Assembly (NCBI RefSeq): GCF_000019805.1
Contig: NC_010525.1
Location: 1,054,001-1,118,000 of the forward strand
DNA length: 64,000 nt
Reading direction: 5' to 3'
Source: Pyrobaculum neutrophilum V24Sta
Lineage (GTDB): Archaea; Thermoproteota; Thermoprotei; Thermoproteales; Thermoproteaceae
The position numbers were made by a program, and so were the translations under genes. Below are positions 38,665-52,474 of this stretch, piece by piece; position 1 is the stretch's first letter; each line of letters opens with the position of its first letter. Below the pieces are notes generated by a model. That model worked only from the letters and a program-made list of their open reading frames with translations. It searched no databases and had not been told where the DNA came from.

Positions 38665-39801
38665 GTGTCTATCTGTGTGAAGTGTGGCGGGCGTAAGCTC
38701 TTATGCGGCCTTCGGCGCTGTCCTATCGAGGATAGGGTGGCTGCGTTTAAGATAGCCTTGCGTAGAAGCTGGGGGCTTGAGGTGTTTGGCTCCACGCCTC
38801 CTGCGGCTGTGGTGGGGGAGGCGGGGTGGCCAGCTGTATCGGTGTATTTTGGGGAGCCGCCCGATGTGTTTGGAGAAGAGGCTAGGTTCTACGACGACCC
38901 GACATCGATGTGGGGGCTTCCGCTTGAGGAGATAGCGCGTCGGAGGAGCTATATGGCCTTCGGCGTGAAGAGGGCCAAGTCGCCTTGGGAGCTGGGGGAG
39001 TTGCCCTACGTGTATATCTCCGCTAAGCCCGTCGACGTGGAGATGAGGTTCGCCAAGGCCCCGCTACCGCAGATACGGTTTGACCTGTTTGAGAAGCCTA
39101 TGGGGCCGAGGGCCCCCCTTGAGCGGGCTAGGGTTGTTGAGAACCCATCGGTGCCTCCTCCCCTCGACAGGCTTATCTGGGACGACGTATCTGCTTCTGA
39201 GGCGGCGGTGGAGCTCTACGCGAGGGGTGTCGACATCTATACAATCCAGAGGGCCTTCTCCCTCGGCCTACTGGGCGCTAGGCACAGGAGGCGGCTTGTG
39301 CCGTCGAGGTGGGGGATTACGGCGGTGGACGTGGCCGTTGGCAACTGGCTCGCCGGCAGGGTAAGGACGTTGCCGGAGGTTGGGGGGATCTTATACGGCT
39401 ACGGCGAATACCTCGACAACCGCTATCTTGTGGCCGTGGTGCCGGGTCCGCTGAGGTTTGTCTACCTTGAGCGTTGGCAGTCGGGGGGCGAGGTGGCCGA
39501 GATCTTGGTAAAGGAGGACGTGAGGGGGGCGCGCTCTGCCATGGACGGGGGGTTCGAGGCGGCTAGAGTTGCCCTTTTGGAGAAGCTGGCTTCCATGGGC
39601 CGGAGGGGCTCCGTCGCGGTGGTGAGGTGGATAGGGGAGGGCTACTACGTCTCCGTGGGGAACTGGCAGATTAGGGAGACGGTTAGGAGGATCCAGCTGA
39701 GGCCTATGGACGAGGAGTATAGGCGGTATGTGGAAAGAGTTGGGAGAGACCCCCTCGACCTTTTGCCGAGGGGGAGAGCCCTAACCGACTTTCTGTCCTA
39801 G
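38665..39801 (+). CDS. nre: Nre family DNA repair protein
   Basis: Archaeal Nre (NreA/NreB) protein, about 378 residues; in Haloferax NreA takes part in DNA-damage repair and binds PCNA. N-terminal zinc finger CVKCGGRKLLCGLRRCP is clear. PPAAVVGEAGWPAVSVYFG, DDPTSMWGLPLEEI and RRRLVPSRWGITAVD are family motifs. The C-terminus RALTDFLS is a weak match to a PCNA-binding box. The start is uncertain: GTG 38665 or TTG 38653. Confidence 0.87.
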   Translation: MSICVKCGGRKLLCGLRRCPIEDRVAAFKIALRRSWGLEVFGSTPPAAVVGEAGWPAVSVYFGEPPDVFGEEARFYDDPTSMWGLPLEEIARRRSYMAFGVKRAKSPWELGELPYVYISAKPVDVEMRFAKAPLPQIRFDLFEKPMGPRAPLERARVVENPSVPPPLDRLIWDDVSASEAAVELYARGVDIYTIQRAFSLGLLGARHRRRLVPSRWGITAVDVAVGNWLAGRVRTLPEVGGILYGYGEYLDNRYLVAVVPGPLRFVYLERWQSGGEVAEILVKEDVRGARSAMDGGFEAARVALLEKLASMGRRGSVAVVRWIGEGYYVSVGNWQIRETVRRIQLRPMDEEYRRYVERVGRDPLDLLPRGRALTDFLS

Positions 39802-40097
39802 CCTATGTAGAGTCTTCCATCGGCCGTGGAGCCTATTTTCAGCAGGCCCTCGGTCTTGTTTATATAGAGGATGCGGCTTCGGGGAAGCGTCAGGCCGCAG
39901 GAGAGGAGGACCGCTTCGCCGTCGTAGGCGATATTGACTCGGCCGTAGACGTGGATCTCCGACCCTGGGTTTTCCAGCGCTATCTTGGCCGCCTGGCATA
40001 CCGCCGGCGTGCTGGGGGCATGCTGGGCGATAAACGCGGCGAGGGCGGCTATCGCGAGCGCGTTTACCGCCGCGAGGTGGATGACGTCGTCTACCAT
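39798..40097 (-). CDS. Exported/anchored small protein, filament locus
   Basis: 99 residues, unrecognised. N-terminal hydrophobic helix (VIHLAAVNALAIAALAAFIA) followed by a probable beta-rich domain with two cysteines (VCQAA and LSCGL). One sequon, NKT. Last gene of the 17-gene minus-strand locus; overlaps the gene before it by 7 bases and the convergent nre by 4. Confidence 0.65.
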   Translation of the reverse strand: MVDDVIHLAAVNALAIAALAAFIAQHAPSTPAVCQAAKIALENPGSEIHVYGRVNIAYDGEAVLLSCGLTLPRSRILYINKTEGLLKIGSTADGRLYIG

Positions 40098-40360
40098 GGG
40101 CTAAAGCGGCAGCTTAGGTTTAACGCCCTGTATGCAACGCCCGGAGGCGCCTCTATGGGCCCAGACGCAGAGCAACGGACCAAGCCGGTGACTCTATACA
40201 CGGCTGTGGGATCGCCCATCTCGGCGTAGCGCAGTGCCTCGGGCCAGTATATGAAGAGGGGTGAAAGGTCGACTCTGTATATCTGGATGGGCTTTATAAA
40301 CGCCAGCGTTGACACGGCAACGGCGAAGATCATGGGGATTAGGGCCAGCTCTAGACGCAT
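40091..40360 (-). CDS. Exported/anchored small protein, filament locus
   Basis: 89 residues, unrecognised. Starts MRLELALIPMIFAVAVSTLA, a single hydrophobic helix, then an outside domain with two cysteines (VRCSA and LSCRF). It is preceded by a TAA-NN-TTTTT-C linker of 30 bases, and overlaps the next gene by 7 bases. Confidence 0.65.
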   Translation of the reverse strand: MRLELALIPMIFAVAVSTLAFIKPIQIYRVDLSPLFIYWPEALRYAEMGDPTAVYRVTGLVRCSASGPIEAPPGVAYRALNLSCRFSPW

Positions 40361-40390
40361 GGCTGTGGTGCGCCGCGCGGGAGAAAAACC
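40361..40390 (-). promoter_or_regulatory. 30-base T5 linker
   Basis: Minus strand: after the upstream TAA stop, GGTTTTTCTCCC..., ending at the next ATG. T5 tract at 40384-40388, 24-28 bases before ATG 40360. One of six alike in this locus. Confidence 0.6.
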
Positions 40391-40891
40391 TTAACACCAG
40401 ACCAGTACTGCCCTTATTTTGACGGTCATGTTGGCGTAGATGTAGGACTCCTCCGCCGTCTCAGGTCTGAAGTCTGTGCCCACGTCGCACATGGGAACTA
40501 CGTGGGTAAACACCGTGGTGTTCCCCCGCGCCTCCGCCGTTGGGAAAATTATGGAGCACCTCGTGAGATATACCGTGTTGTTCCGCGCCGTAAACGTCTT
40601 GTTCAACATTTCCCATATGGGCGGACACTGCCCAATGGCCACCGCGTAGAGGGGGAGGCCCGGTCCGCCTCCTTCCACGATCCAGCGTCCTCCTCTGTAG
40701 ACGTAGTAGACAGTGTAGGCCCGAATAGACAGGGGCGTCTCCGCCTTCGCCGGCTTTCCGCTTGCTATGGAGGAGGCAAGCGCCCGTAGTGAGAAGTCGG
40801 CGGAGGCAACGGCGTTGATCGTAGAAGTCGCCACAAGCGCGGTGGCTACTACAGCCGCCACCAACGCCAGGAGGTACCTCGCCGTCAACAT
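40391..40891 (-). CDS. Exported/anchored protein, filament locus
   Basis: 166 residues from ATG 40891. Signal or anchor helix LLALVAAVVATALVATSTINAV, then an outer domain with four cysteines (GQCPP, TRCS, PMCDV and a C-terminal WC) and several sequons (NKT, NTT, NMT). Unrecognised; its layout suggests a minor filament or surface subunit. The start overlaps the stop of the 991-residue gene by 7 bases. Confidence 0.7.
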   Translation of the reverse strand: MLTARYLLALVAAVVATALVATSTINAVASADFSLRALASSIASGKPAKAETPLSIRAYTVYYVYRGGRWIVEGGGPGLPLYAVAIGQCPPIWEMLNKTFTARNNTVYLTRCSIIFPTAEARGNTTVFTHVVPMCDVGTDFRPETAEESYIYANMTVKIRAVLVWC

Positions 40892-43860
40892 CTCTTCACG
40901 GCCGAGAGGGAGCTGGGCCTCCCCCTGGGGAAGCCGGATGGATCTGCCCACGTCTTGTACAATAGGATGGGTTTCGGCCGCCAGAGCTCAACGACGTCTC
41001 CAGGCCTCGCCTGGGCCTCTTCCCTAACTATGGGGAGTATCAACACCGGATCCCACGGGTAGGTGGCGGTGGCGTTTACCACCACGCATCTCCCACGCCA
41101 CTCGCCTGCTTTAGTCCACGCGCCGCCTCTCATTAGGTAGAACGCGAACCCGACGGCGGGGGCGTCCACCGAGATCTTGACGAGGGAGCGGCTTGGGTCA
41201 ACCAACTCCACCTTCGGCTCCACGTAGCGGTCAACCATCCTCAACCCGCCCAGGAGATGCACTTCGCCCCAGAAATCCCCGCTGGCGGCCAGCTGGGAGC
41301 TGTATTCAACCCCCCACCGCGACTCCGAGGCCGCGACGACGCATAAGCTTCTCCCCAGCCTACCCCCCTCCCCCACGGCGTAGTAGCCGTGGAAGTAGGG
41401 TACCCCGCCCGCTGTGAGATAGATAGTCGTGTTTAAGTGGAGGGATGTCAACGTCTGAGGCGCTGCCGAGCTGGCCTCGATCTTGTAGGAGACGTCTCGC
41501 GTGACGAAGAAGACGTAGCTGTAGCGCTTAGACGACCCCTCTGCCTCCACCTCAAGAGTCACCGCGATTGGCCCGGTCCAGTTAGCCGGCGTGATGTACA
41601 CGGGCCTTTGGCCTATGTGGATCGAATGACAAGCCCCGAGAGGCGTGTAGCCGATCCACCAGCCCGGCCCCACGTAAACGCCGTCGAGAGGTCTCCACGT
41701 CTTTCTCACCTCTGCCAGGGGTGTCCCCCCGACGTCTCGGTACCTCAAGCCGCCCGGCTCGGCGACCTTGCCCATCTCCACGTACAACCTCAAGGTGGCG
41801 TTGATCTCGCTGCCTGTGTAGATCACGAGGAAGGTATAGCCCGCGTTGGGCAACGCCACGTCGGGGATGGGGCCGGGGGCGGGGCCCCAGATGCGGGCGT
41901 CTACGGCTGTGCAAATCGGCGCGTCACACAGAGTCGTTGGCGCCAGGTAGACGAGCCACGGGCCTGTTGAGTTGGACACCATCGAGGGGAGGCCTAGGGG
42001 CAAGGCGTCTGTCCAGCCCGCGGGGTATTCATTGCCCGCAACGCCCTCGAAGAGGTAGTTGTAGAAGGCCCCGCCCTCGGCTGTTTGGAAATAAAGCCTT
42101 TCGAAACCCCTGGTGGTGTTGCGGTAGGCGGAGGCGCCGTAGACGGCGCTGAGCATGGACACATGGTGTGGAGGCGGCCGGACGCAGACCTCTGGTATAT
42201 CCCAATCCCCCGTGTTGGGGTTGAAGGCGTAGGCCCTAAGCCTGTAGACGTGCCAGAAGTACAGGACGGGGTCGCCCGCCGTCAACTCCATGAAGTCTCT
42301 GTATCCATCGCGTCCACATACACCCTGCTGGGGGATAAGCCAATCCACCAGGGGCAATCTGGCGATCGGCCACTTCGCAGATGTGCCAACTCTCGAGTAG
42401 CCGACCCACGTGCCGTTCACCTTTGAATAGACGTGTTGAGAGTATACGCAACTCAAGATCTCCTCGGGCCACTGTCGACAGGGATTGGGCGGCGAGAACC
42501 AAGCCGTTTTTATCTCCCTCAGCGCTGGGTCCACGGCCGCGTTGAAGCTTGCCCACTTTATGCCCGGCTGCGTTGAGGCGGGCACCGCTCTGTAGCTGAG
42601 CTTCCCCAGCGCCCCGGCTTTTTCGTAATCAACAAGCTTCCCCGCGTCATCCACGGCGCGGAGATAGGTGCCCGGCGTTGAGTCTATCCACACGGCTCTC
42701 CCGCCAGCATCTAGACGCCAGACCACCGCCGCGTCGAACGTTGCGGCGGAGCCCAGCGGCGCGTAGACGGATAGAGCTCGCGACAGCGCTGAGGAGTTGG
42801 CCTCGTGTTGCCACCTCACCGCCACGTACGGCGTTAGGAGATAGGGGCTTTTCACGGCCACCGAGGCTAGAGTCCAGTTCCACGCCCAACTTCGCCCCGC
42901 CCACGTGGCGTTGCCCGCCGTAGCCACGGTGAAGCAGTCGGGGGGTTGGCAACTCAGCCCCCTCATCTGCACCACTCTAGAGACGTAGAGAGGTACCTCC
43001 CTCGGAGGCCTAAGCTCGATTTTTCCCCACGCCAGAGGCGCCGCGACAGCCGCGAGCTCCACCTTGTAGGAAAAGGGAATGTTCTGTGCCGCGCCCGCCG
43101 GCGCTACACCTGCGTCCGTGGCCAGGGTAGATCTACAACCCAGCATGTCGCAGTCGCCGTATAGCCACGGGTCGGGGATCCTAGCATATACGCCGCCTAT
43201 CTCAACCACGTCGCCTGGTCTCTTCCCAGCGATCTCTAAAGCCCTCCACACGCCGGGTGTGGAGACCCTCAACACCAGGTTGTCCCCCGTGTAGTACGTC
43301 CGGCAGCTGGGCCAGCTGGAGGCATCCGGCAGGTCTACACACAGCGGGGTCATCCAGCTGAAGAGGCGGTCGGGGCGTAGAGACAGCCGTATTTCCCTCG
43401 TCTCCCTATAGGAGGAGCTTGATCGGGGGACTACGAAGGCGACCTCCTCCAACTGCCTCGGGGGCTCCTCCTCGACTTTGTAGTACACGCCCTCCACCTC
43501 CGCTCCGTTGTCGAACCTCGCCCTACAGAGGTACTGGGCCACGGACCACAGGCCGGGTCTGAAGTAGCTCAGCTTGATGGCGTACTTCAAGTCTCTATCC
43601 CACAAGCTGGAGGTGGCTCTAGAGGCCACCGCCACCTCTGATGCGTTTAGAAACCGCTCGCCCCAAACCTCCGTCGGCTGGCTGAGGGCGGTGAAGGCGA
43701 CCACGCCTCTCCCAACGCCTAGAGGCGCCAGCGATGTGAAGGTGAAGGCGATGTGGGCATACGTCGACGTGTCTATGCGAAAGTCCCAGGTTTTTATACA
43801 CGTCACGGAGACGGCGGCTTGTGCTAGCGCCGGCAGGATTAGCCAGAGGAGCAGGCGCAT
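40885..43860 (-). CDS. Large secreted protein (991 aa), filament locus
   Basis: Signal peptide MRLLLWLILPALAQAAV then about 970 residues predicted to be mostly beta-strand with many aromatic residues. No C-terminal membrane anchor is obvious, so it is probably released or held by partners. I count 18 cysteines, most in close pairs (LSCQPPDC, LCDAPIC, GDCDMLGC), suggesting disulfides, and several sequons (NAT, NWT, NTT). Family not recognised. It may be an adhesin, filament tip or large surface component. Preceded by a T5 linker. Confidence 0.75.
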   Translation of the reverse strand: MRLLLWLILPALAQAAVSVTCIKTWDFRIDTSTYAHIAFTFTSLAPLGVGRGVVAFTALSQPTEVWGERFLNASEVAVASRATSSLWDRDLKYAIKLSYFRPGLWSVAQYLCRARFDNGAEVEGVYYKVEEEPPRQLEEVAFVVPRSSSSYRETREIRLSLRPDRLFSWMTPLCVDLPDASSWPSCRTYYTGDNLVLRVSTPGVWRALEIAGKRPGDVVEIGGVYARIPDPWLYGDCDMLGCRSTLATDAGVAPAGAAQNIPFSYKVELAAVAAPLAWGKIELRPPREVPLYVSRVVQMRGLSCQPPDCFTVATAGNATWAGRSWAWNWTLASVAVKSPYLLTPYVAVRWQHEANSSALSRALSVYAPLGSAATFDAAVVWRLDAGGRAVWIDSTPGTYLRAVDDAGKLVDYEKAGALGKLSYRAVPASTQPGIKWASFNAAVDPALREIKTAWFSPPNPCRQWPEEILSCVYSQHVYSKVNGTWVGYSRVGTSAKWPIARLPLVDWLIPQQGVCGRDGYRDFMELTAGDPVLYFWHVYRLRAYAFNPNTGDWDIPEVCVRPPPHHVSMLSAVYGASAYRNTTRGFERLYFQTAEGGAFYNYLFEGVAGNEYPAGWTDALPLGLPSMVSNSTGPWLVYLAPTTLCDAPICTAVDARIWGPAPGPIPDVALPNAGYTFLVIYTGSEINATLRLYVEMGKVAEPGGLRYRDVGGTPLAEVRKTWRPLDGVYVGPGWWIGYTPLGACHSIHIGQRPVYITPANWTGPIAVTLEVEAEGSSKRYSYVFFVTRDVSYKIEASSAAPQTLTSLHLNTTIYLTAGGVPYFHGYYAVGEGGRLGRSLCVVAASESRWGVEYSSQLAASGDFWGEVHLLGGLRMVDRYVEPKVELVDPSRSLVKISVDAPAVGFAFYLMRGGAWTKAGEWRGRCVVVNATATYPWDPVLILPIVREEAQARPGDVVELWRPKPILLYKTWADPSGFPRGRPSSLSAVKRC

Positions 43861-43890
43861 GGAAGATCTCCGAGGCTCCGGGGAAAAAGG
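43861..43890 (-). promoter_or_regulatory. 30-base T5 linker
   Basis: Minus strand: TAA then CCTTTTTCCCC..., ending at ATG 43860. T5 at 43884-43888, 24-28 bases upstream of the ATG. Confidence 0.6.
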
Positions 43891-44541
43891 TTAGGCAAAG
43901 GCTGTTGGACAAGCTATGGGGAGCTTCAGCGGGTAATCAACGATATATATAAGGGGAGACGGCGCTTCGACGTACAGCGTAGCCACGTCCCCCGTCGCGT
44001 TGTAGACAAGCGCCTTGGGGACTAGCACGTACGTGGCGTTGGGAGGGGGCGGCACGCCGAGCACAGGAGGCCGCTTCTGCTTAAGCCACAGCTGGCGGTA
44101 GAATCCTAGATCCAAGCCAACCGGCGCCTCCACCTCTATCCAAGGCAGAACGTCCACCGAGTGCCTCAGCTCGATCGCGTAGAGGTATGCGGAGCCGCCG
44201 CTCGGCAACGGCGCCCTCTTGCAGAAGATGAGGTTTACGTAGATCTGGTAGAGGATGGGGCCTCCGCGGCCCTCCGCCTTGTATCCAAGGGGCAACGCCG
44301 CCGGGAATAGGCCAGAGCTGGTGGTGATGTTCACAACGAGCGCCCTCGCGACGTTGCTCCCCTTCTGGAAGACCTCCTCGTCTTGCGTATAGTTGAAGCC
44401 TCTGGCGCCAATGCTGGCCTTGGCAAAGTAGAGCTGATCGGCCGTGTTAACCCCGGCGATATACGGCGTGTGGGACGCGGCGTATAGCAACGCAAAAGCG
44501 ACTAGCGCGGCGGCTATTACGCCGTAGGCCGTAGACCACAT
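43891..44541 (-). CDS. Exported/anchored protein, filament locus
   Basis: 216 residues with N-terminal helix VIAAALVAFALLYAASHT, then a predicted beta-rich outer domain containing two cysteines (IFCKR and IACPT) and four sequons (NYT, NIT, and two NAT). Unrecognised. Starts one base after the preceding stop. Confidence 0.7.
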   Translation of the reverse strand: MWSTAYGVIAAALVAFALLYAASHTPYIAGVNTADQLYFAKASIGARGFNYTQDEEVFQKGSNVARALVVNITTSSGLFPAALPLGYKAEGRGGPILYQIYVNLIFCKRAPLPSGGSAYLYAIELRHSVDVLPWIEVEAPVGLDLGFYRQLWLKQKRPPVLGVPPPPNATYVLVPKALVYNATGDVATLYVEAPSPLIYIVDYPLKLPIACPTAFA

Positions 44542-44542
44542 A

Positions 44543-44887
44543 TCACCAAAGCCTTCTGCCTATTACCACCTCCTCTCCGCAACTCACGTAGGCGAGCCCC
44601 GCGGCCAGATATAGATACATGGGGTCGCAGACGACTCTATCTCCTACGCTCAGCGGCCTCCCCCTATAGTAGGCCCACCCAAGCCTAGCCACCTCCCTCG
44701 TGCCTAGGTAGAGCACCGCCGAATCCCCCTCCTGCACCACCGCGTAGCCTCCCCTCAGCTTCAGCAGACAGTCCGTGCAGGCTGGGACGTCGGAAACCCC
44801 CTCCCTGGCCGGGAAGAGAGAGGCCACCACGGCCGCGGCTAAGGCCATCAAGCCGGCGAGGATCAGAACATCTCTAGCGAGGTACAT
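44543..44887 (-). CDS. Exported/anchored small protein, filament locus
   Basis: 114 residues. N-terminal helix DVLILAGLMALAAAVVASL, then four cysteines (ACTDC, VVCDP, VSCGE). Short beta-like repeats LRGGYAVVQEGDSAVLYLG and YLAAGLAYVSCGEEVVIG. Unrecognised; one base from each neighbour. Confidence 0.65.
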   Translation of the reverse strand: MYLARDVLILAGLMALAAAVVASLFPAREGVSDVPACTDCLLKLRGGYAVVQEGDSAVLYLGTREVARLGWAYYRGRPLSVGDRVVCDPMYLYLAAGLAYVSCGEEVVIGRRLW

Positions 44888-44888
44888 A

Positions 44889-45326
44889 CTACGGGCAACG
44901 GTACTGTGCCACCAACCAGCGGCCTCTAGCCGCGATGGCCACCGGCACGCAGTCCGGATCCACGTGGGGGCGAAACGGCGGAGGGCACCACAAGCCGGTG
45001 TACGGGTCGGCGCCTAGCCTCACTGCGCGGCTCCCGTAGAGGCTACATCTGTACCCCCCGGGGTAGACCTCAAACACGGCGACGAGATCGCCAGGCACTC
45101 CCAGCGAGCGCCTAAACTCCTCCACGCCGGCCCCCTCGTACTCAACGGCGTAAAGGCCTGAGGACGAGTTGTATACATATATGTGCCTAACAGGCGCGTC
45201 GCGCGCCGGCGCGATAGGCGCTTCCACAACCGCCGCAGGCATAAACGGCTTTAAAACGAGGGCTGTATAGACGGTCAACGCGGAGAGCGCAACTATAAAC
45301 GCCGAGGCGGCGACGAGGTCCTCCAT
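44889..45326 (-). CDS. Exported/anchored protein, filament locus
   Basis: 145 residues. N-terminal helix AASAFIVALSALTVYTALVL, then an outer domain with four cysteines (RCSLY, LWCPP, DCVPV and a C-terminal RCP). One sequon (NSS). Unrecognised. Starts one base after the coiled-coil protein gene ends. Confidence 0.65.
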   Translation of the reverse strand: MEDLVAASAFIVALSALTVYTALVLKPFMPAAVVEAPIAPARDAPVRHIYVYNSSSGLYAVEYEGAGVEEFRRSLGVPGDLVAVFEVYPGGYRCSLYGSRAVRLGADPYTGLWCPPPFRPHVDPDCVPVAIAARGRWLVAQYRCP

Positions 45327-45327
45327 G

Positions 45328-46242
45328 TCACTCCGCCGAGCGCCTCTTATACACGAGGAGGGCCGCGCCCACGGCGGCGACGGCGGCGATCAACGCCAGG
45401 TGGATGGGCCAACCGCCCGCTTGTCCGCCTTCCGCCGACGTGACGGCGGGCGCGGCCGCGGACGTGTTCACAATCCTGGCGGCTAGCTCCCTGTTGCGCC
45501 TCTCCAACTCCTCCAATCTGTTCCTCAGCGCCTCGTTGTCGGCGAGGCAGGCGCGCAGGTTGGCGGAAAGCGCCGAAAGCTCGCCGTCTTTCTGCCTTAG
45601 GAGCTCGGCCAGCCTCTCCTTCTGCATCTCCAGCGCCTCCAGCTGGCTCCTCAGTTGCGCAGCCACGTTGGCCAACTCCTGGCGTTGAGCCGAGTATTTT
45701 TCCAGCTCCGACTTGAGGCTTTCCACAGTCTTTTGAAGCTTGTCGACCTCCTCCACTATAGCGGCGGTGGAGCTGGGCAACCTCACCACGGCCTTAGTCG
45801 CTCTGTCGAGGTACCACCCCGCCGGCACGTAGCCTGAGTAGACGCCGATCGGCGTAGCCACTGTGAGGTTCTCCCTTACGAACTCGACGTAGCCTCTATA
45901 TGCTGCGAACCGGAGAGGCAACCACCTAAGCCAGAGCCAAGAGGTGCCGTCTTTAGTGCAGTATATATCCCCCATCCATTCCCCACTCGTGGCGTTGTGG
46001 ACGTCAAAAGCCACGTATCTACATTGGGCCATGAGGTACTGCACCGCGGCTTGGGCCTCCGCCTTAGAGCCGTTGAAGACGAGCCCCACCTGGGTTAGGT
46101 AGATCGGCCTCCCCTCTAGATACAGGACGAAGTGGGTTGCGTTGTAGATGTAGATCTGTCCAAGTTGGGCATGGGGAGGGACCCAACTGACGAGTTGCCC
46201 CCAGACCAGCGCCGCCAGTAGGAGTAGGGGGAGTTTACGCAT
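45328..46242 (-). CDS. Secreted coiled-coil protein with C-terminal membrane anchor
   Basis: 304 residues. Signal peptide (LPLLLLAALVWGQLVSW), an N-terminal globular domain to about 150, a long coiled coil at about 160-250 (VDKLQKTVESLKSELEKY, LRSQLEALEMQKERLAELL, LRNRLEELERRNRELAARI), a short Ala/Ser/Thr linker, then a membrane helix (HLALIAAVAAVGAALLVY) and basic end KRRSAE. This architecture suits a surface stalk or spacer anchored in the membrane. Three cysteines. Preceded by a T5 linker. Confidence 0.75.
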   Translation of the reverse strand: MRKLPLLLLAALVWGQLVSWVPPHAQLGQIYIYNATHFVLYLEGRPIYLTQVGLVFNGSKAEAQAAVQYLMAQCRYVAFDVHNATSGEWMGDIYCTKDGTSWLWLRWLPLRFAAYRGYVEFVRENLTVATPIGVYSGYVPAGWYLDRATKAVVRLPSSTAAIVEEVDKLQKTVESLKSELEKYSAQRQELANVAAQLRSQLEALEMQKERLAELLRQKDGELSALSANLRACLADNEALRNRLEELERRNRELAARIVNTSAAAPAVTSAEGGQAGGWPIHLALIAAVAAVGAALLVYKRRSAE

Positions 46243-46272
46243 GAGGGTGGGAGACGCGGCGGGGGAAAAACC
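46243..46272 (-). promoter_or_regulatory. 30-base T5 linker
   Basis: Minus strand: TAA then GGTTTTTCCCCC..., ending at ATG 46242. T5 at 46266-46270. Confidence 0.6.
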
Positions 46273-46731
46273 TTAGGAGATTCCTACTGTGACTACGCCC
46301 TTAGCGATCTGGACAGCCTTGCCGCTTGTGGCGTCTACGGCGTAGACAACGTAGGTGTATTGTGCGCCGGGCTCCAGCTCTCCTCCGAATCTACAGGTTG
46401 CGGACTGGCCCGCCACGAGGGGCGGCTGTATGTTGGCCGAGTCGACTGTGAAGACGCCGGAGTTTGCAACTATGCACCGCCCAGTGACCAAGTCGGCGCC
46501 TGGTGAGCCCGACTTGCCGTATCTGATGTAGACCCCCGAGGTTTTGCCGTTAAGCACCTCTATGGTTACGTCGAAGCCGCCCCGGTCAGCGGTCACTATG
46601 GCGTTTGCCCTCAGCGACTCCGCGGCGGATTTCCCAATGCCCTGGAACGTCAAAACGCCTATTACGCCCACGATTATAAACGCCGCTGCTATCAGCAGAG
46701 ACTCCACCGTTGTAAGCCCTCTCGCCCTCAT
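46273..46731 (-). CDS. Type IV pilin-like protein with class III signal peptide
   Basis: 152 residues. The N-terminus MRARGLTTVESLLIAAAFII has the archaeal prepilin pattern: a short basic leader (RARG), then a hydrophobic helix carrying Thr-Val-Glu near its start, so cleavage after Gly5 by a PibD-type peptidase is expected. The rest is beta-rich with two cysteines (GRCIV and ATCRF). Likely the major or a minor filament subunit. No peptidase gene is in the locus. T5 linkers flank it on both sides. Confidence 0.78.
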   Translation of the reverse strand: MRARGLTTVESLLIAAAFIIVGVIGVLTFQGIGKSAAESLRANAIVTADRGGFDVTIEVLNGKTSGVYIRYGKSGSPGADLVTGRCIVANSGVFTVDSANIQPPLVAGQSATCRFGGELEPGAQYTYVVYAVDATSGKAVQIAKGVVTVGIS

Positions 46732-46762
46732 GGATCTACGGCGTTTGCGCTGGGGAAAAAGT
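46732..46762 (-). promoter_or_regulatory. 31-base T5 linker
   Basis: Minus strand: TAA then ACTTTTTCCCC..., ending at ATG 46731. T5 at 46756-46760. Confidence 0.6.
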
Positions 46763-47959
46763 TTAGATGAGTATCTGGAGGGCGTGTTGTAGCGCCAAGC
46801 CCGCCGCCCCTCCCAACGCGGTGGACCTGTGGAGGCCCAGCGGGCTTAAGACCACCGCCACGTACCCAGCTGCGACCAGCGACATGGCCGTGGACAAAAC
46901 CTGCCGTATCTCGTCGTAGGGCGGCGGGGAGAAGAAGGGGTTGTAGCCGGTCTCCACGGCCGAAAGCTGCTTGACAGCGGAGGAGGTCGCCATGGCGAGG
47001 ACGAAAACCGCCGCTATAAACAGGGAGAAGTAGGCGGTGGAGAGCTTCGCGACGCGCTTAACCGAGGCCGACTCTATGTCGATGAGGGCTTGTATGTACT
47101 CCACGGCCTTTGAGGCGGCGGCGCCTCCGGCCTCGACGATGGCCTTATACATCGCCTTCGCCAACACGAAGTAGCGCGACGGGACGAAGTACCCGTACGC
47201 TATCTTGGCGGCTGTCTTGTAGCTCCCCACAAGGCGGCCTAAGATGACGTCCGGCGGAGCCCCCTCCTTCAACATAGCCGCCACCGAGCGCAACATGGGC
47301 GGAACCTCCCTCCTAATGGAGAACCACCAAGCCCTATCTCTAGCCCTTAGCCAAAGCCAGGTGGTTACCCCAAAGGCGATAAACGCCGCGGGCGGGCTTA
47401 TAAACGCCGCTAGCGCGGCGGCGCCGGCGCCCAGGACCAGAGACCACTCGTAGGTCCTCCAGAGGTCTAGGTCGTGAGGAGCCGCCGCCACCGCCACAGC
47501 ACCCAGTGCCGCTGTTACGCCGTATATCAACGCCAGGAGGAGCAAGGGCTCCACGGATAGAACACCAACAGCCCAGAGAAAGAGCAGGAACAGGGGCAGT
47601 AGAAAGACGGCGCCCAAGGAGGAGGTTATCGACTCGTAGAGCCTCGCCCTCGCCTCCACCTTGGCCACAGCCAGCGCCCTCATGCCCTCTAGGTATGAAT
47701 AAACCAGCACGGACCTATCTACGCCGGCCTCTTCCTGGGCTAGGGCATAGCCCATCTGCCGGGCGGCCTCCTCCTTCTCCTCTAGAAACGCCGCCGACGG
47801 CGAAGGCATTAGGGATGAGACGAAAAGCCTCCGCGCCTCGACCTCGTCTAGCTCAGCGGCGTTGAAGGAGGTGTACTTAAGCGCCTCTGCTCCCGAGACA
47901 GCCCCTAGGTAGGTGGCGAAGATGGGGGCCGCCGCGATGTAGAAATCCTCTCTACGCAT
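46763..47959 (-). CDS. TadC/GspF-like polytopic membrane protein
   Basis: 398 residues, about seven hydrophobic segments in three groups (residues about 108-160, 170-205, 310-398). Two cytoplasmic helical regions resemble GspF/TadC folds (LDEVEARRLFVSSLM..., then VPPMLRSVAAMLKEGAPPDVILGRL and ASKAVEYIQALIDIESASVKRVAKLS). In type IV filament systems this protein is the membrane platform that the secretion ATPase acts on. The family assignment rests on layout and neighbours. Downstream of a T5 linker. Confidence 0.72.
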   Translation of the reverse strand: MRREDFYIAAAPIFATYLGAVSGAEALKYTSFNAAELDEVEARRLFVSSLMPSPSAAFLEEKEEAARQMGYALAQEEAGVDRSVLVYSYLEGMRALAVAKVEARARLYESITSSLGAVFLLPLFLLFLWAVGVLSVEPLLLLALIYGVTAALGAVAVAAAPHDLDLWRTYEWSLVLGAGAAALAAFISPPAAFIAFGVTTWLWLRARDRAWWFSIRREVPPMLRSVAAMLKEGAPPDVILGRLVGSYKTAAKIAYGYFVPSRYFVLAKAMYKAIVEAGGAAASKAVEYIQALIDIESASVKRVAKLSTAYFSLFIAAVFVLAMATSSAVKQLSAVETGYNPFFSPPPYDEIRQVLSTAMSLVAAGYVAVVLSPLGLHRSTALGGAAGLALQHALQILI

Positions 47960-47988
47960 GTGGAGGCCCTACACCGGCGTGAAAAAGG
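47960..47988 (-). promoter_or_regulatory. 29-base T5 linker
   Basis: Minus strand: TAA then CCTTTTTCACG..., ending at ATG 47959. T5 at 47982-47986. Confidence 0.6.
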
Positions 47989-48327
47989 TTAGATGAGGTT
48001 CGAAACCACCTCCCTGATGTGGGACAGCCTCCCGGCCTTTTCCACGGCCTTCGGTAGCTCCTCGACGGCCTGTGCCGGCGGGATGCCCGAAGAGACGCGG
48101 CGGATCACGTAGTCCACCGCCATGTCCAAGTGCCTAGTTAGATCTAGGGAGCGGGCGGCGACGCGCCAGTCCTCCTCCTCAAGCCAAATTCCGTGTTTCG
48201 CCAGCTTCATAACCGCCTTCAGCATCTCCCGCTCTCCGACGCCCAGCTCCTTCGCCAGCTCCTCAAGCCATCTGGCCGTCGACGCCGTGAGACCCCTCTT
48301 AACTGCCTTCTTCTCAAGTCCCCTCAT
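47989..48327 (-). CDS. Small helical protein, filament locus
   Basis: 112 residues from ATG 48327, which overlaps the stop of the preceding gene by 4 bases. Soluble and helical: LTASTARWLEELAKELGVGEREMLKAVMKLAKH looks like a small DNA- or protein-binding helical bundle, followed by YVIRRVSSGIPPAQAVEELPKAVEKA. Unrecognised. The longer open frame upstream is low-complexity antisense and is not used. Confidence 0.65.
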   Translation of the reverse strand: MRGLEKKAVKRGLTASTARWLEELAKELGVGEREMLKAVMKLAKHGIWLEEEDWRVAARSLDLTRHLDMAVDYVIRRVSSGIPPAQAVEELPKAVEKAGRLSHIREVVSNLI

Positions 48328-48560
48328 CTCCTCGCCAGGAGGAGAAGCGCCAGCTTTAGGTAGGGGTCGTCCCGGCTCTGGAGGGCGCTCATAAGCACGT
48401 CCTTTGGGAGGGCTGACAGCACCTTTTCCGAAAGCTCCGGAGGCATCTCCACAAGGGCCTTGACGAGGCAGTCCTGCCACCCCTCCGCCTTTGTCTCAAC
48501 GCCGTTGTCCCCCGCCGGCATCTCCAGCGCCTCCTCGAGGGACCTCCTCTTAAGCACCAT
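48324..48560 (-). CDS. Small protein, filament locus
   Basis: 78 residues, unrecognised. Charged N-terminus, one cysteine, then amphipathic helices (LVEMPPELSEKVLSALPKDVL and PYLKLALLLLARR). Starts after a T5 linker and is coupled to the next gene by ATGA. Could be a regulator or assembly factor of the ATPase. Confidence 0.6.
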   Translation of the reverse strand: MVLKRRSLEEALEMPAGDNGVETKAEGWQDCLVKALVEMPPELSEKVLSALPKDVLMSALQSRDDPYLKLALLLLARR

Positions 48561-48591
48561 GCGCCAAGGGCGTCTTCAACCCGGAAAAAGG
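48561..48591 (-). promoter_or_regulatory. 31-base T5 linker
   Basis: Minus strand: TAA then CCTTTTTCCGG..., ending at ATG 48560. T5 at 48585-48589. Confidence 0.6.
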
Positions 48592-50121
48592 TTATACATA
48601 TCCAAAGCGGGACGCCTCCTCCTTCACAGCCGTCTTGAGGTCAAGCCTCTTGAGCCACAGCAACTCCTCTATGGTTTTCCTCGCCGATATGGGGTCCTCC
48701 ATCTCTGCCGCTTTTACCAAGGCCTCCATCCTCAGCGCAAGCTCCTTCTTGAGGTCAACGCCGTACATCTCCTCTACGTAGCTAGACACAGCCGGCGTAA
48801 GCGCCGAGACCTCTGCCACCTGCGCCCTACCCCCCTCGACGACGACCGCCTTCGCCTCTTTTACAAATCGGGTGCCGCCTATCGCAGATAGCTGGATTAT
48901 CAACATGCCGTGTAGACCCTCGGGGGGAGCCTCGGCCTCCACTATGCGCAAGACGGCGTCTTTAACCGTGTCGGCGTGCATCGTCGTCAACGCGCCGTGT
49001 CCAGTGAGCTTGTAGTTGACCAGGGTCCTGAGCTCCGCCGGCGTTCTCGCCTCGGCTAGGGCGACGACGGTGTGCATCGTGCCGTACCTCAGGGCTTGAT
49101 CCAGCGCCGCCCACAGCTTCTCCTCCCCCGGCACGGAGATGTGGAGGAGTTGCCCATCTAGGGGGGCCCAGATCTCCCTAGCCCCCCTCTCCACCACAAC
49201 GACCTGGAACCACGGCGGGGTGAGGTAGAGGAGCTGGTTTAGCTGCGTCGTTTTTCCGGAGCCCATACCGCCTGAGAACACCACGCCCCCTTTAGTCTCC
49301 AGGACAAGAGAGGCCAGAGCCAACAGCTCCAGCCCCTCTGGGCTGTAGGCGCTGGACACCCGCTCCGTCTCGAGCCTTGGCCTTGAGAGATACGGCCTCA
49401 GCAACGCCTTGGAGGGCTTGGGGTAGGCGGACGTCTTCCTGATGTTGACGTTGTACTCGATTAGATCTGCGGCTATCCTCGCCTTGTGCACCGGGTCCTC
49501 CCGCGTCAACATGGGCTTGTCCATGGTGAGAGAGGGGAGAAGCTGCTTCACTACCACATACATCAGGGGCTCGGGTATGGTGATGTTGGTGGGGAGGCGG
49601 ATCTCGTTTCTCACCGCGACGACTCGCCTGTACCTCCCCAGCTCCACCACCTGGAACCTGAGGTACTCCAGCTGCTCCCGTAGGTTCTTGGGGACGTATG
49701 TGTATTTGGCGGCCGGCGCCGTGGCTTGGGGAATAACTATCTCGGTCAGCAGGGGGTCCTTCATCATGGCCTCCAACGCGCCGTATCCCATGTAGTCCCG
49801 CGCGCCTGACCACCGGTCCAGGAGGTAGTGGACCACCTCTCTGTAGTCTCTGTACAAAGCCCAGATGGCCCTATCGCGGAGGCCCTCCGCTATAGATTTA
49901 ACCACCTTTGGGTACTCCTTCTCGTCGGGGGGCACGGCGCCTCTAAGCATCACGAGCAGAAGCGCCGTCTGTAAATCGTCGGGGAGATCCGGATCGATTA
50001 CGACGTACATGAGGTCCTCGGTTATGCAGACGTCTGTCCTAAGCCCTCTGTCGACGATCACCCCCTCCCTCCTCAGCCAACACCTAGATCTAAGGCTTTT
50101 GTCGGCGTGGGCGTAGATCAT
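48592..50121 (-). CDS. Type II/IV secretion-type ATPase (TadA/VirB11/FlaI-like)
   Basis: 509-residue hexameric motor ATPase for filament assembly or secretion. N-terminal domain to about 260 with LTEIVIPQATAPAAKYTYV, typical of the family's N2 region. Walker A SGGMGSGKTTQLNQLL at about 283-298; Asp-box-like region around WFQVVVVERGAREIWAP (the usual IED-like glutamate); His-box TTMHADTV (GALTTMHAD) near 410. It starts inside the stop of the ParA-like gene (4-base overlap). Confidence 0.9.
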   Translation of the reverse strand: MIYAHADKSLRSRCWLRREGVIVDRGLRTDVCITEDLMYVVIDPDLPDDLQTALLLVMLRGAVPPDEKEYPKVVKSIAEGLRDRAIWALYRDYREVVHYLLDRWSGARDYMGYGALEAMMKDPLLTEIVIPQATAPAAKYTYVPKNLREQLEYLRFQVVELGRYRRVVAVRNEIRLPTNITIPEPLMYVVVKQLLPSLTMDKPMLTREDPVHKARIAADLIEYNVNIRKTSAYPKPSKALLRPYLSRPRLETERVSSAYSPEGLELLALASLVLETKGGVVFSGGMGSGKTTQLNQLLYLTPPWFQVVVVERGAREIWAPLDGQLLHISVPGEEKLWAALDQALRYGTMHTVVALAEARTPAELRTLVNYKLTGHGALTTMHADTVKDAVLRIVEAEAPPEGLHGMLIIQLSAIGGTRFVKEAKAVVVEGGRAQVAEVSALTPAVSSYVEEMYGVDLKKELALRMEALVKAAEMEDPISARKTIEELLWLKRLDLKTAVKEEASRFGYV

Positions 50122-50822
50122 GAGAGCTTTATCCGCGTAACGATGTGTTCAACCGACCTCCGGTTTTCCCTATCCCGTAGCACGGAGCTGGCCACGGACT
50201 CGCCGTAGTACTCGCTTATGGCAACCCGCTTCAGCACCACAGGCGCGATCTTTCTAGCCAACTTCACCTCGTCCTTTTCCACCATGTTGACCACCACCAG
50301 CGCTGAGTAGGCCATATAGCGGCGGTACTGCTCCGCCTTTATGTCGGAGATCCTCGAAATGAGGCGGCGGTCCGCCATGAATATGTTGTACACCCCGGCG
50401 CTCTGGAGCTTCGACAGCAGCTCGGCCCTGAGAGCCGCCGTGGTGTCTACGACCACGGTGTCCACCGGGATCCTCAGCTTTGTGACAAACTTCGGCATGT
50501 AGCTCATCCACTCGAGCATCGCCTCGCCGAAGTCCTTCACCACGTCCTCCCCCAGCCGCTGGTACAGCTCGAAGGCTTCGTAGCCCGGCATGAGGTAGAG
50601 GACGGGGGATATCCTGTGGACGTAGGGCGCGCCGCCCTTTAAGAAGGGCGCCAGCCAACCCGGCCTCCTTGGCGCTCTGAACAACTGCGATAGGTCTGCC
50701 TTCTCCCAGTCCATGTCTACCAACAACGTGTAGCCCTTGGCCACAGCCAACACGCTCGCCAGCGTGGTCTTCCCAACGCCCCCGTCTAGCGACGAGATCA
50801 GGACCAGCTTTATGGGTCTCAC
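50118..50822 (-). CDS. ParA/MinD-like P-loop ATPase (TadZ/CpaE-like position)
   Basis: 234 residues. P-loop SLDGGVGKTTLASVLA near residue 12: the deviant Walker A usually reads KGGxGK[TS]T, but the signature lysine is Asp here. VVVDTTAALRAELL contains the Walker B region (VVVDT). Located beside the secretion ATPase as TadZ/CpaE is in Tad loci, where it places the machine at the pole. Overlaps both neighbours by 4 bases. Confidence 0.8.
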   Translation of the reverse strand: MRPIKLVLISSLDGGVGKTTLASVLAVAKGYTLLVDMDWEKADLSQLFRAPRRPGWLAPFLKGGAPYVHRISPVLYLMPGYEAFELYQRLGEDVVKDFGEAMLEWMSYMPKFVTKLRIPVDTVVVDTTAALRAELLSKLQSAGVYNIFMADRRLISRISDIKAEQYRRYMAYSALVVVNMVEKDEVKLARKIAPVVLKRVAISEYYGESVASSVLRDRENRRSVEHIVTRIKLS

Positions 50823-51118
50823 AGCCTCTCCGCCAGCCTCCGGTATACCAAGGCTGCCGCCGCTCTCTTTAAACTTTCGCCGTCTGTCACAGGGCCGACC
50901 TCCCTTCTAATTTCCCTCAAGACGTATGAGGCGGCCTTTTTGTCGGATAGGCTCTCCAACCTCAAGAGGGAGGGCCTCAGCTTGACCCCGCCTCCTTTTA
51001 CGTTAAGCAGGGCGAGGCGCGCCGCGATGCATATATCCCTGTGGGCTCTGTAGAACGCCTCATCTCTACAAGCCTCGGACACCTTCTTGAGCAACTCCGA
51101 GGCGGCTCCGTCAAGCAT
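50819..51118 (-). CDS. Hypothetical protein, filament locus
   Basis: 99 residues, helical, soluble, unrecognised. Two cysteines near the N-terminus (EACRD and DICIA). ASYVLREIRREVGPV and AAAALVYRRLAERL are amphipathic. It overlaps the upstream gene by 8 bases and the ParA-like gene by 4. Confidence 0.6.
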   Translation of the reverse strand: MLDGAASELLKKVSEACRDEAFYRAHRDICIAARLALLNVKGGGVKLRPSLLRLESLSDKKAASYVLREIRREVGPVTDGESLKRAAAALVYRRLAERL

Positions 51119-51704
51119 AGCACATCCTGAGCCTTTCGGGGTCCTCCGCCACCTTTTTCACCACCTCTGCGAAGGCGGCGTCTAGCTCGATCTTCTCCCT
51201 CAGCACCTTCACCAACTCGTCCAACGCCCACCCGCCCCCCCTCGGCTGTACAACCTGGGGGTTGCCCCTCCGCCCCAGCCGCCTCCTCAAGGCCTCAACC
51301 ACGACGTCGGGCTCTTCACATAGCAACGGGTACTCGCCGCAGAGGCCCGCGTATCGCACCACCTCTGGGTTTATCTGAAAGAGAGGCACCTTATCCACCT
51401 TAAGCGCGAACTCCACAAGCGTCTTGACGGCCTCGGCCGCCTCTCCCCACCTAAACCTCCGGATAAAGGTGGCGGTTGGACAGCTCGTGACTCTGGGCTT
51501 CACCCTGCCGTATATGACGTTTAGATCCTCCACCGAGGCGACGATATATACAACGACCGCCTCTCCCCGTCTGCACAAGGGCTCCACCTCCGCCGGATCC
51601 GCCATGTGGAACTCCTTAAGCAGGCTCACCCCCCTGGGCGGGGGGCCCCACCTCATCTCCCACCCCTCCCCCAGCCAACTCTTTACCTCTGTCAGCGTCG
51701 TCAT
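51111..51704 (-). CDS. Hypothetical protein, filament locus
   Basis: 197 residues from ATG 51704 (MTTLTEVKSWLGEGWEMRWG). Soluble, mixed alpha/beta; VVVYIVASVEDLNVIYGRV and PLFQINPEVVRYAGL give the look of a globular domain, followed by a charged helical tail. Unrecognised. ATG overlaps the preceding TGA by 4 bases, so a longer upstream frame is not used. Confidence 0.65.
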   Translation of the reverse strand: MTTLTEVKSWLGEGWEMRWGPPPRGVSLLKEFHMADPAEVEPLCRRGEAVVVYIVASVEDLNVIYGRVKPRVTSCPTATFIRRFRWGEAAEAVKTLVEFALKVDKVPLFQINPEVVRYAGLCGEYPLLCEEPDVVVEALRRRLGRRGNPQVVQPRGGGWALDELVKVLREKIELDAAFAEVVKKVAEDPERLRMCYA

Positions 51705-52366
51705 AACGCCGAGATGTACAAACCTTCGGAGCTTGGGTTTTTTGTACAAGACGGCGAGGTGCACATCCTCCCCAATAGGGCGTCTATATGCGCCAACCTG
51801 CCCGTGTCTAGCCAATACAGCCACTCAGCCAGGTGCCTATTTCTCCTATCTCTCCACCTAGTCCACGCAACCCATGCGTACCCCCTGCTATGGGCCAGCT
51901 CCCTAAGCTCTGCGGGAAAAGCGCGTCTAAAGACCTCAAGCGGCTGCAGACGCGGCACCTCCGACACCCAGCGGAAAATCGTGGAAGCCCTGTTCCGCCA
52001 GGTGTACCTCACGCCGGGTTTATCAAGCGACGACAGGAGAAAACAAGGCGAAACCTGAACCCTCACGTCAAGACGCTCACCAGTCTCCACGTAGAGCCAC
52101 CTCGCTCTGGCGTGAGGAGCTACGTAGCCTCCCTCGACAAACAGCGTCCACTCATTCCTGAAGGGCCCCCCCACCTCGAGCCCACGTAGACCCACCCACA
52201 ATATCCCCGGGTTATCGGCAACCAACTGCACCAGGTCGTCCACGTCGCGCGCAAGATGCCTAAACCTCCTCACCAACTCGCCGCTGAGCCTCTCCCCCAG
52301 CAGGAGTAGCCAGTCGTCGGGGGAGCTGTGGAGGAATATACATGGGTCCGCCCTAGGCTTAAACAC
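51701..52366 (-). CDS. Hypothetical protein, first gene of the filament locus
   Basis: 221 residues, unrecognised. Rich in Trp and Arg (WLLLLGERLSGELVRRFRHL; WVAWTRWRDRRNRHLAEWLYWL), soluble. GTG at 52366; GCTTTTAAAGAG at about 52379-52390 is a canonical TATA box, apparently the main promoter of the 12.5-kb locus. This is the only canonical TATA box found before a gene of the locus. Confidence 0.65.
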   Translation of the reverse strand: MFKPRADPCIFLHSSPDDWLLLLGERLSGELVRRFRHLARDVDDLVQLVADNPGILWVGLRGLEVGGPFRNEWTLFVEGGYVAPHARARWLYVETGERLDVRVQVSPCFLLSSLDKPGVRYTWRNRASTIFRWVSEVPRLQPLEVFRRAFPAELRELAHSRGYAWVAWTRWRDRRNRHLAEWLYWLDTGRLAHIDALLGRMCTSPSCTKNPSSEGLYISAL

Positions 52367-52399: not shown

Positions 52400-52474
52400 T
52401 GGTGGACCGGCCGGGATTCGAACCCGGGATCTCCCGCGTGCAAGGCGGGCATCCTTCCGCTAGACTACCGGCCC
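52400..52474 (-). tRNA. tRNA-Ala (anticodon UGC)
   Basis: Full cloverleaf on the minus strand: 7-bp acceptor GGGCCGG/CCGGTCC containing the G3:U70 identity pair of tRNA-Ala, D arm, anticodon stem CCCGC/GCGGG with loop CTTGCAC (anticodon TGC), T arm CCGGG-TTCGAAT-CCCGG. Discriminator A73 at 52403 and an encoded CCA (52400-52402). No intron. TATA AGTTTTAAGG at about 52494-52503. Confidence 0.97.

Follow-up and report, generated by a model that had tools for sequence, protein, structure and literature searches.

The abundance and diversity of pili in hyperthermophiles were termed a major enigma in a passage of Makarova et al. (PMC4858521), and an operon of seventeen genes in Pyrobaculum neutrophilum V24Sta raises the question in concrete form: what is one such pilus for? 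The operon lies on the minus strand of a window of 64,000 nucleotides, by which we mean the whole stretch of DNA analysed (G000:C1:1054001-1118000 of the 1,769,823-bp genome; G, C and L handles denote genomes, contigs and loci). An initial annotation had described it as a lineage-specific filament, adhesion or secretion machine. Our overall best explanation, which we consider likely, is a ParA-directed pilus for cell-cell contact that is able to partner Ted (Thermoproteales exchange of DNA), a machine derived from type IV secretion systems (T4SS; VirB2/B4/B6) whose TedC pilus has been solved (PDB 8DFT; PMC9905601).

The open reading frames (ORFs) at 39798-52366 confirm 17 co-directional genes, from g1 (52366) to g17 (39798), which are as tightly packed as first reported: the intergenic gaps range from -8 to +31 bp, with overlaps of 4-8 bp or spacings of 1 bp or 29-31 bp. 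Alignment of orthologues shifted the starts of g2, g7 and g15 to 51704, 48327 and 40891, respectively (197, 112 and 166 aa (amino acids)). An N-terminal hydrophobic segment is present in the eight consecutive proteins g10-g17 and was found in none of the five small soluble proteins g1-g3, g6 and g7, in agreement with the initial annotation.

The locus is very probably an archaeal type IV pilus (T4P) operon, and its core is well supported by sequence comparison. The proposed secretion ATPase and ParA-like ATPase were both recovered, as g5 matches T2SSE (E 7.9e-10) and g4 matches CbiA (E 1.3e-5). The nearest PDB entries of g5 are 2OAP, CpaF and FlaI, and its motifs GxMGxGKTT and TGHGxLTxxHA are invariant in the orthologues. 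With NCBIfam models, g5 scored 29.5 bits against the Tad-pilus ATPase TIGR03819 (cut-off 373) and 29 bits against the archaellum FlaI-type model NF058587 (cut-off 550). The class III signal peptide noticed earlier belongs to g9 (RARG|LTTVE), and RG|LTTVE together with the hydrophobic helix is conserved in Pyrobaculum. The top PDB match of the g9 pilin profile is an archaeal type IV pilin at E 0.019, and no PDB match of g9 is close. For g8, the putative platform, no Pfam match was obtained; its AlphaFold2 model (mean predicted local distance difference test score, pLDDT, 88.6) comprises two helical bundles with hydrophobic, presumably membrane-embedded, helices after each.

T4P of Pyrobaculum and Thermoproteus have been catalogued from genomes as subclade 4G by Makarova, Koonin and Albers in 2016, and the passages of that paper dealing with 4G list a diverged ATPase (arCOG05609), a diverged TadC (05611), a PilA-like pilin (05612), a FleN/MinD ATPase (05608), small helical proteins (05610 and 07479), two larger surface proteins and Cys-rich minor pilins (PMC4858521). 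The published order of arCOG05608-05612, namely ParA, ATPase, helical protein, TadC and pilin, is the order found here, the arCOGs being assigned by description and order and not by an arCOG search. Judged by its gene set in one locus, the window operon matches subclade 4G as described in those passages and, since it does, its surface set had already been listed. The initial annotation had held that novelty would fall away if the core belonged to a described system with the same accessory proteins, and 4G, with the same core and accessory kinds, largely takes it away. Three features go beyond the 4G passages: a head module shared with Ted, a pilus-Ted join in P. oguniense and an operon motif. 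The main-text description of 4G, within those passages, mentions neither the g1-g3 triad, nor the motif, nor a link to DNA transfer (PMC4858521).

The genome has another T4P locus (L064:3701-12542, about G000:C1:1644700-1653541) with two pilins, two TadC genes, an ATPase and a KaiC-like ATPase. Its pilin matches the Pyrobaculum pilus PDB 8FK7 (E 4.9e-33), and g9 is therefore a different pilin. The 8FK7 structure is an archaeal class III pilin filament, as is predicted for the g9 pilus; by sequence, however, it is close to the pilin of the second locus and not to g9. As to the prepilin peptidase, a weak A24 match was found at G000:C1:601154 (E 0.002, below the cut-off), with counterparts across the order. 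In the Thermoproteus-like G014, G015 and G016, about 16 kb separate this weak match from the 4G ATPase, whereas in Pyrobaculum it is located elsewhere.

The order of all or nearly all 17 genes is kept in the other complete Pyrobaculum loci, where protein identities are about 30-80% and the mean pairwise values fall from 78% (ATPase) to 40-42% (g15 and g14). In Thermoproteus, ParA-ATPase-g7-platform is kept, along with g9 and most tail genes in a changed order. As the gene order recurs in Pyrobaculum, and the core with most of the tail in Thermoproteus, the locus is not a chance assembly; the linkage of the eight-gene tail to the core, which the initial annotation had named as support, thus holds in the relatives. 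Of 45 Thermoproteales genomes searched with a g5 profile, 14 have a clear orthologue, which is split in one case, and a fifteenth match is remote; all 14 fall within the family of the window's genome. Four of the assemblies (G007, G011, G012 and G013) are fragmented.

The cytoplasmic head of the operon consists of g1-g3, the ParA-like g4, g6 and g7. The Walker A motif of g4 deviates, with the signature Lys changed to Asp in 14 of 14 orthologues (SxDGGVGKTT), and bacterial TadZ profiles match arCOG05608 (Denise et al. 2019, PMC6668835). A ParA profile revealed extra loci in G003 and G009, at E about 1e-100, which have no pilus ATPase and are Ted islands. Most of these ParA islands contain a g1-like gene, two more small genes, ParA, and g6-like and g7-like genes, followed downstream by a HerA/VirB4-like membrane ATPase, a TrwB-like ATPase, a SWIM protein and a RadA-like protein. 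Comparison of operon with island proteins by hhalign gave 98% for g1, 98.9% for g6 and 99.7% for g7. The head module is therefore not a pilus part as such, and we somewhat favour a positioning or specificity module. Among the island copies of G009, ParA is 91-96% identical while g1-g3 are mostly 24-57% identical, the pair at 95-98% being one between genomes.

P. oguniense TE7 (G005) holds two 4G copies, with ATPases 95% and platforms 94% identical; their ParAs are 71% identical, and in copy 2 g1-g3 are replaced by genes that include distant relatives of g1 and g3. Between the copies, DNA identity is about 55-88% over the length of ParA and rises to 93-98% shortly after the ATPase gene begins. 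A tree of g1 places the copy-2 pilus proteins with those of the islands (support 100/100), whereas copy-2 ParAs are separate from island ParAs; from this conflict of the two trees it follows that the cassette moved between pilus loci and islands. The triad X1-X3 of Thermoproteus is similar to g1-g3 in size and position and may be orthologous, but the profiles do not match (24% or less).

The islands were assigned to Ted by their machine genes. In G002, genes of the island type directly precede an ORF whose match to TedC of P. calidifontis covers the full 112 residues of that chain (PDB 8DFT, E 7.5e-64), with TedA after it, and homologues of TedC and TedA are found in loci of G003, G009, G005, G011, G012 and G014. 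Once both had been identified there, the reading of the HerA-like islands as unknown conjugative elements was dropped; comparison with plasmids, phages and viral contigs gave no useful match, and PADLOC returned generic HerA/STAND matches only. Conversely, a homologue of g1 occurs in the Ted locus of P. calidifontis (E 1.8e-24), and beside TedB in G012 there are homologues of g1 (E 5.8e-33), g2 (2.3e-18) and g3 (3.4e-11). Ted islands hence carry homologues of g1-g3, ParA, g6 and g7 of the window operon, in which none of TedA, TedB and TedC was found.

Pilus and Ted genes are also joined physically. The second pilus operon of P. oguniense extends to 507.6 kb; after one opposite-strand ORF come Ted genes at 509.1-519.2 kb, with a TedB-like ATPase, TrwB-like, SWIM and RadA-like proteins, TedC and TedA. 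The two sequence stretches concerned, L038 and L184, overlap exactly and are contiguous. The region at 485-530 kb is among the largest blocks absent from P. arsenaticum and is associated with paREP2 (PMC3558965); the published P. oguniense inversions were considered at the two pilus copies, where the coordinates do not coincide. A second join was found on contig C15 of the metagenome bin G007, where g10-g17 and a g6-like gene are followed by TedB.

A further tie is a motif. At eight sites in the genome, the sequence TAANNTTTTTC is followed by an ATG after 14-24 bases, and six of these sites are the six 30-bp gaps between genes of the operon. At the orthologous starts of g6, g8, g9, g10, g14 and g16, 7-9 of 9-10 Pyrobaculum loci have the T5 motif, and none of these loci was found to have it at the starts of g2, g3, g5, g7, g12, g13, g15 and g17. 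In 11 Pyrobaculum genomes, AAGGTTTTTCC-N14-22-ATG has 34 matches (18 in 4G operons, 16 in Ted island regions and 0 elsewhere). The position, about 31 bases upstream of the start, fits internal promoters of leaderless mRNAs, which the motif may represent.

Taken together, these observations suggest the following scheme. ATP hydrolysis by a hexameric g5 would drive the membrane platform g8, which would polymerise the class III pilin g9 after its cleavage by a PibD-like peptidase encoded elsewhere. The products of g10-g17, as anchored or minor subunits, would take the fibre across the surface layer (S-layer) and, with the disulfide-rich, adhesin-like g14 which they present, decorate it. The head, with g4 as a ParA/TadZ/VirC1-like member, would position the machine and select partners, and DNA exchange would use specific contacts that the pilus makes between cells, as Ups does for Ced in Sulfolobales. 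We infer this contact role in DNA exchange from the occurrence of the head on Ted islands, the pilus-Ted join in two genomes and the shared motif, and hold it as a tentative proposal. In its widest form, which we put forward with a little more reserve still, 4G would serve a DNA-exchange system as its contact pilus; the pilus, the ParA head and Ted would be interchangeable modules of one island family, the hypervariable g1-g3 would set the machine or partner for each ParA, and the window would hold a pilus-only form fixed in the chromosome.

Several points weigh against this scheme. Chief among them, TedB was not found in the window's own genome at E 1e-8, nor in the 4G carriers G001, G004 and G006, and the pilus must therefore also work without Ted; Ted, in turn, is found without the pilus. 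On the P. oguniense island, most copies of the motif belong to the pilus half and almost none to the Ted half. For the platform, hhalign of g8 with TadC gave at most 42%, which does not establish TadC homology by sequence, and in the fold search PilC 3JC8 (T4aP machine) tops both TM-score and probability among the 50 matches listed, at a non-significant E of 0.83. No experimental study of any of the 17 genes was found in the literature.

An alternative is an ordinary Aap-like adhesion pilus, used for attachment to surfaces or in biofilm and not dedicated to DNA exchange, whose head is a generic ParA positioning set borrowed by Ted islands. We take this to be a real possibility: 4G reaches further within the family than TedB, which was not detected in the own genome, and g14 and the minor subunits change rapidly, as surface adhesins do. 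Such a pilus would leave without a reason the two physical joins to Ted, the exchange of cassettes between pilus loci and Ted islands, and the confinement of the motif to 4G operons and Ted islands. An integrated element might also have left the head behind as a plasmid-type partition system, a by-product of insertion with no role in the pilus. Membership in the ParA family and the multi-copy, hypervariable triads on Ted islands, which fit partition-type incompatibility, are what one would expect of such a system; yet in nearly all Pyrobaculum loci the head genes stay in step with those of the pilus and overlap by 4 bp, in Thermoproteus they hold the corresponding position, and the order ParA-ATPase-g6-g7 is conserved across genera, and we judge a mere remnant unlikely.

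The initial annotation had left room for protein secretion as well. T4P and type II secretion systems (T2SS) share ancestry and the operon encodes a large secreted protein, so that a machine exporting g14 or other proteins, rather than a pilus, might be envisaged. But g14 itself carries a Sec-type signal peptide, the platform has as its neighbour a class III pilin with the conserved E5, and these archaea lack a bacterial-type outer membrane to be crossed. Because of this signal and the presence of the pilin the secretion-only reading, for which nothing found speaks directly, was dropped as highly improbable, while the lineage-specific type IV filament of the initial annotation stands. The genes of the operon and the copies of its motif are collected in Table 1.

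Table 1. Genes of the operon and copies of its motif, in positions of the window.
Feature	Position	Strand	Description
g1	51701..52366	-	221 aa, GTG start, soluble; head module; invariant DPCIFLH; homologues on Ted islands
g2	51111..51704	-	197 aa, soluble, 5 invariant Cys; head module
g3	50819..51118	-	99 aa, soluble; head module
g4	50118..50822	-	234 aa, ParA/MinD-like ATPase; arCOG05608-like, TadZ-related per PMC6668835
g5	48592..50121	-	509 aa, T2SSE/VirB11-family secretion ATPase; Walker A and His box intact
g6	48324..48560	-	78 aa, soluble; head module, common to Ted islands
g7	47989..48327	-	112 aa, soluble; head module, common to Ted islands
g8	46763..47959	-	398 aa, putative diverged TadC-like membrane platform; arCOG05611 by the published 4G passages
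g9	46273..46731	-	152 aa, major pilin candidate; class III signal peptide
g10	45328..46242	-	304 aa, secreted coiled-coil, C-terminal membrane anchor (S-layer-like stalk)
g11	44889..45326	-	145 aa, N-terminal membrane helix, 4 invariant Cys; minor pilin-like
g12	44543..44887	-	114 aa, N-terminal membrane helix, 4 invariant Cys
g13	43891..44541	-	216 aa, N-terminal membrane helix
g14	40885..43860	-	991 aa, secreted, Cys-rich; predicted chain of beta-strand-rich domains; adhesin-like
g15	40391..40891	-	166 aa, N-terminal membrane helix, 4 invariant Cys
g16	40091..40360	-	89 aa, N-terminal membrane helix, 2 invariant Cys
g17	39798..40097	-	99 aa, N-terminal membrane helix, 2 invariant Cys
TAANNTTTTTC motif before g6	48584..48594	-	
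TAANNTTTTTC motif before g8	47981..47991	-	
TAANNTTTTTC motif before g9	46755..46765	-	
TAANNTTTTTC motif before g10	46265..46275	-	
TAANNTTTTTC motif before g14	43883..43893	-	
TAANNTTTTTC motif before g16	40383..40393	-	

Among the surface proteins, the 991-residue Cys-rich protein singled out earlier is g14. It contains 18 Cys, and 11 Cys columns are at least 80% conserved; its signal is ordinary, cleavable-looking and of the Sec type, and its model (pLDDT 74.5) is a strand-rich multidomain chain for which no whole-chain relative was obtained (query TM at most 0.09). The coiled-coil protein g10 has a C-terminal membrane helix as well as the N-terminal one, and its gene is duplicated in Pyrobaculum sp. 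WP30 (L041; 327 and 385 aa). The g12 protein is about as short in G004 as here and reaches 265-396 aa in several relatives, a difference from which loss or gain of its C-terminal part follows.

Some further observations concern the surroundings and the fate of these loci. A tRNA-Ala (TGC) gene lies on the same strand at 52400-52474, 33 bp upstream of g1; as an integration site it was rejected, because among the loci scanned this tRNA stands just upstream of g1 only in the own genome. In the Thermoproteus-like G014 (L047/L048, G014:C1:865436-874536), the 4G ATPase gene is broken near residue 141 by about 7.5 kb that include a TnpB-like gene, and both pieces are open frames. A Thermoproteus-type remnant, ParA-small gene-g7 without the ATPase, adjoins a Pyrobaculum-type 4G operon in G013 (L040) and suggests replacement. 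Fragments of a ParA of the g4 family in G004 (L150, G004:C1:602449-602702) suggest a decayed Ted island or pilus head. G003 and G009 together have about eight Ted islands (L142-L149 and L186), in which the machine genes are alike and the g1-g3 triads within one cell are very different; several of these islands begin with a STAND-type NTPase of 1327-1405 aa and a winged-helix-like gene.

Among known systems, bacterial Tad resembles the operon in having a ParA-like TadZ, a TadA-like ATPase and, if g8 is indeed a diverged TadC, a TadC-like platform, but the Flp pilins of Tad are short whereas g9 is long. In Sulfolobales, Ups and Ced pair a T4P with a T4SS-like DNA import machine, as we propose for 4G and Ted. 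The UV-induced Ups system, however, comprises just four genes (UpsA/B/E/F), lacks both a ParA head and a large adhesin, and has its genes at a distance from those of Ced (see also PMC9905601). While the Ced importer works with Ups pili, the Ted paper names no such partner for Ted (PMC9905601). In the sequences compared here, a ParA module of the cytoplasm has moved between a T4P and a machine of T4SS descent, and the link of the shared control genes to DNA exchange hints at the purpose of the pilus. Where a pilus operon and Ted are joined and have a control module and a motif in common, they would offer a concrete and testable answer to the question of purpose for one pilus type.

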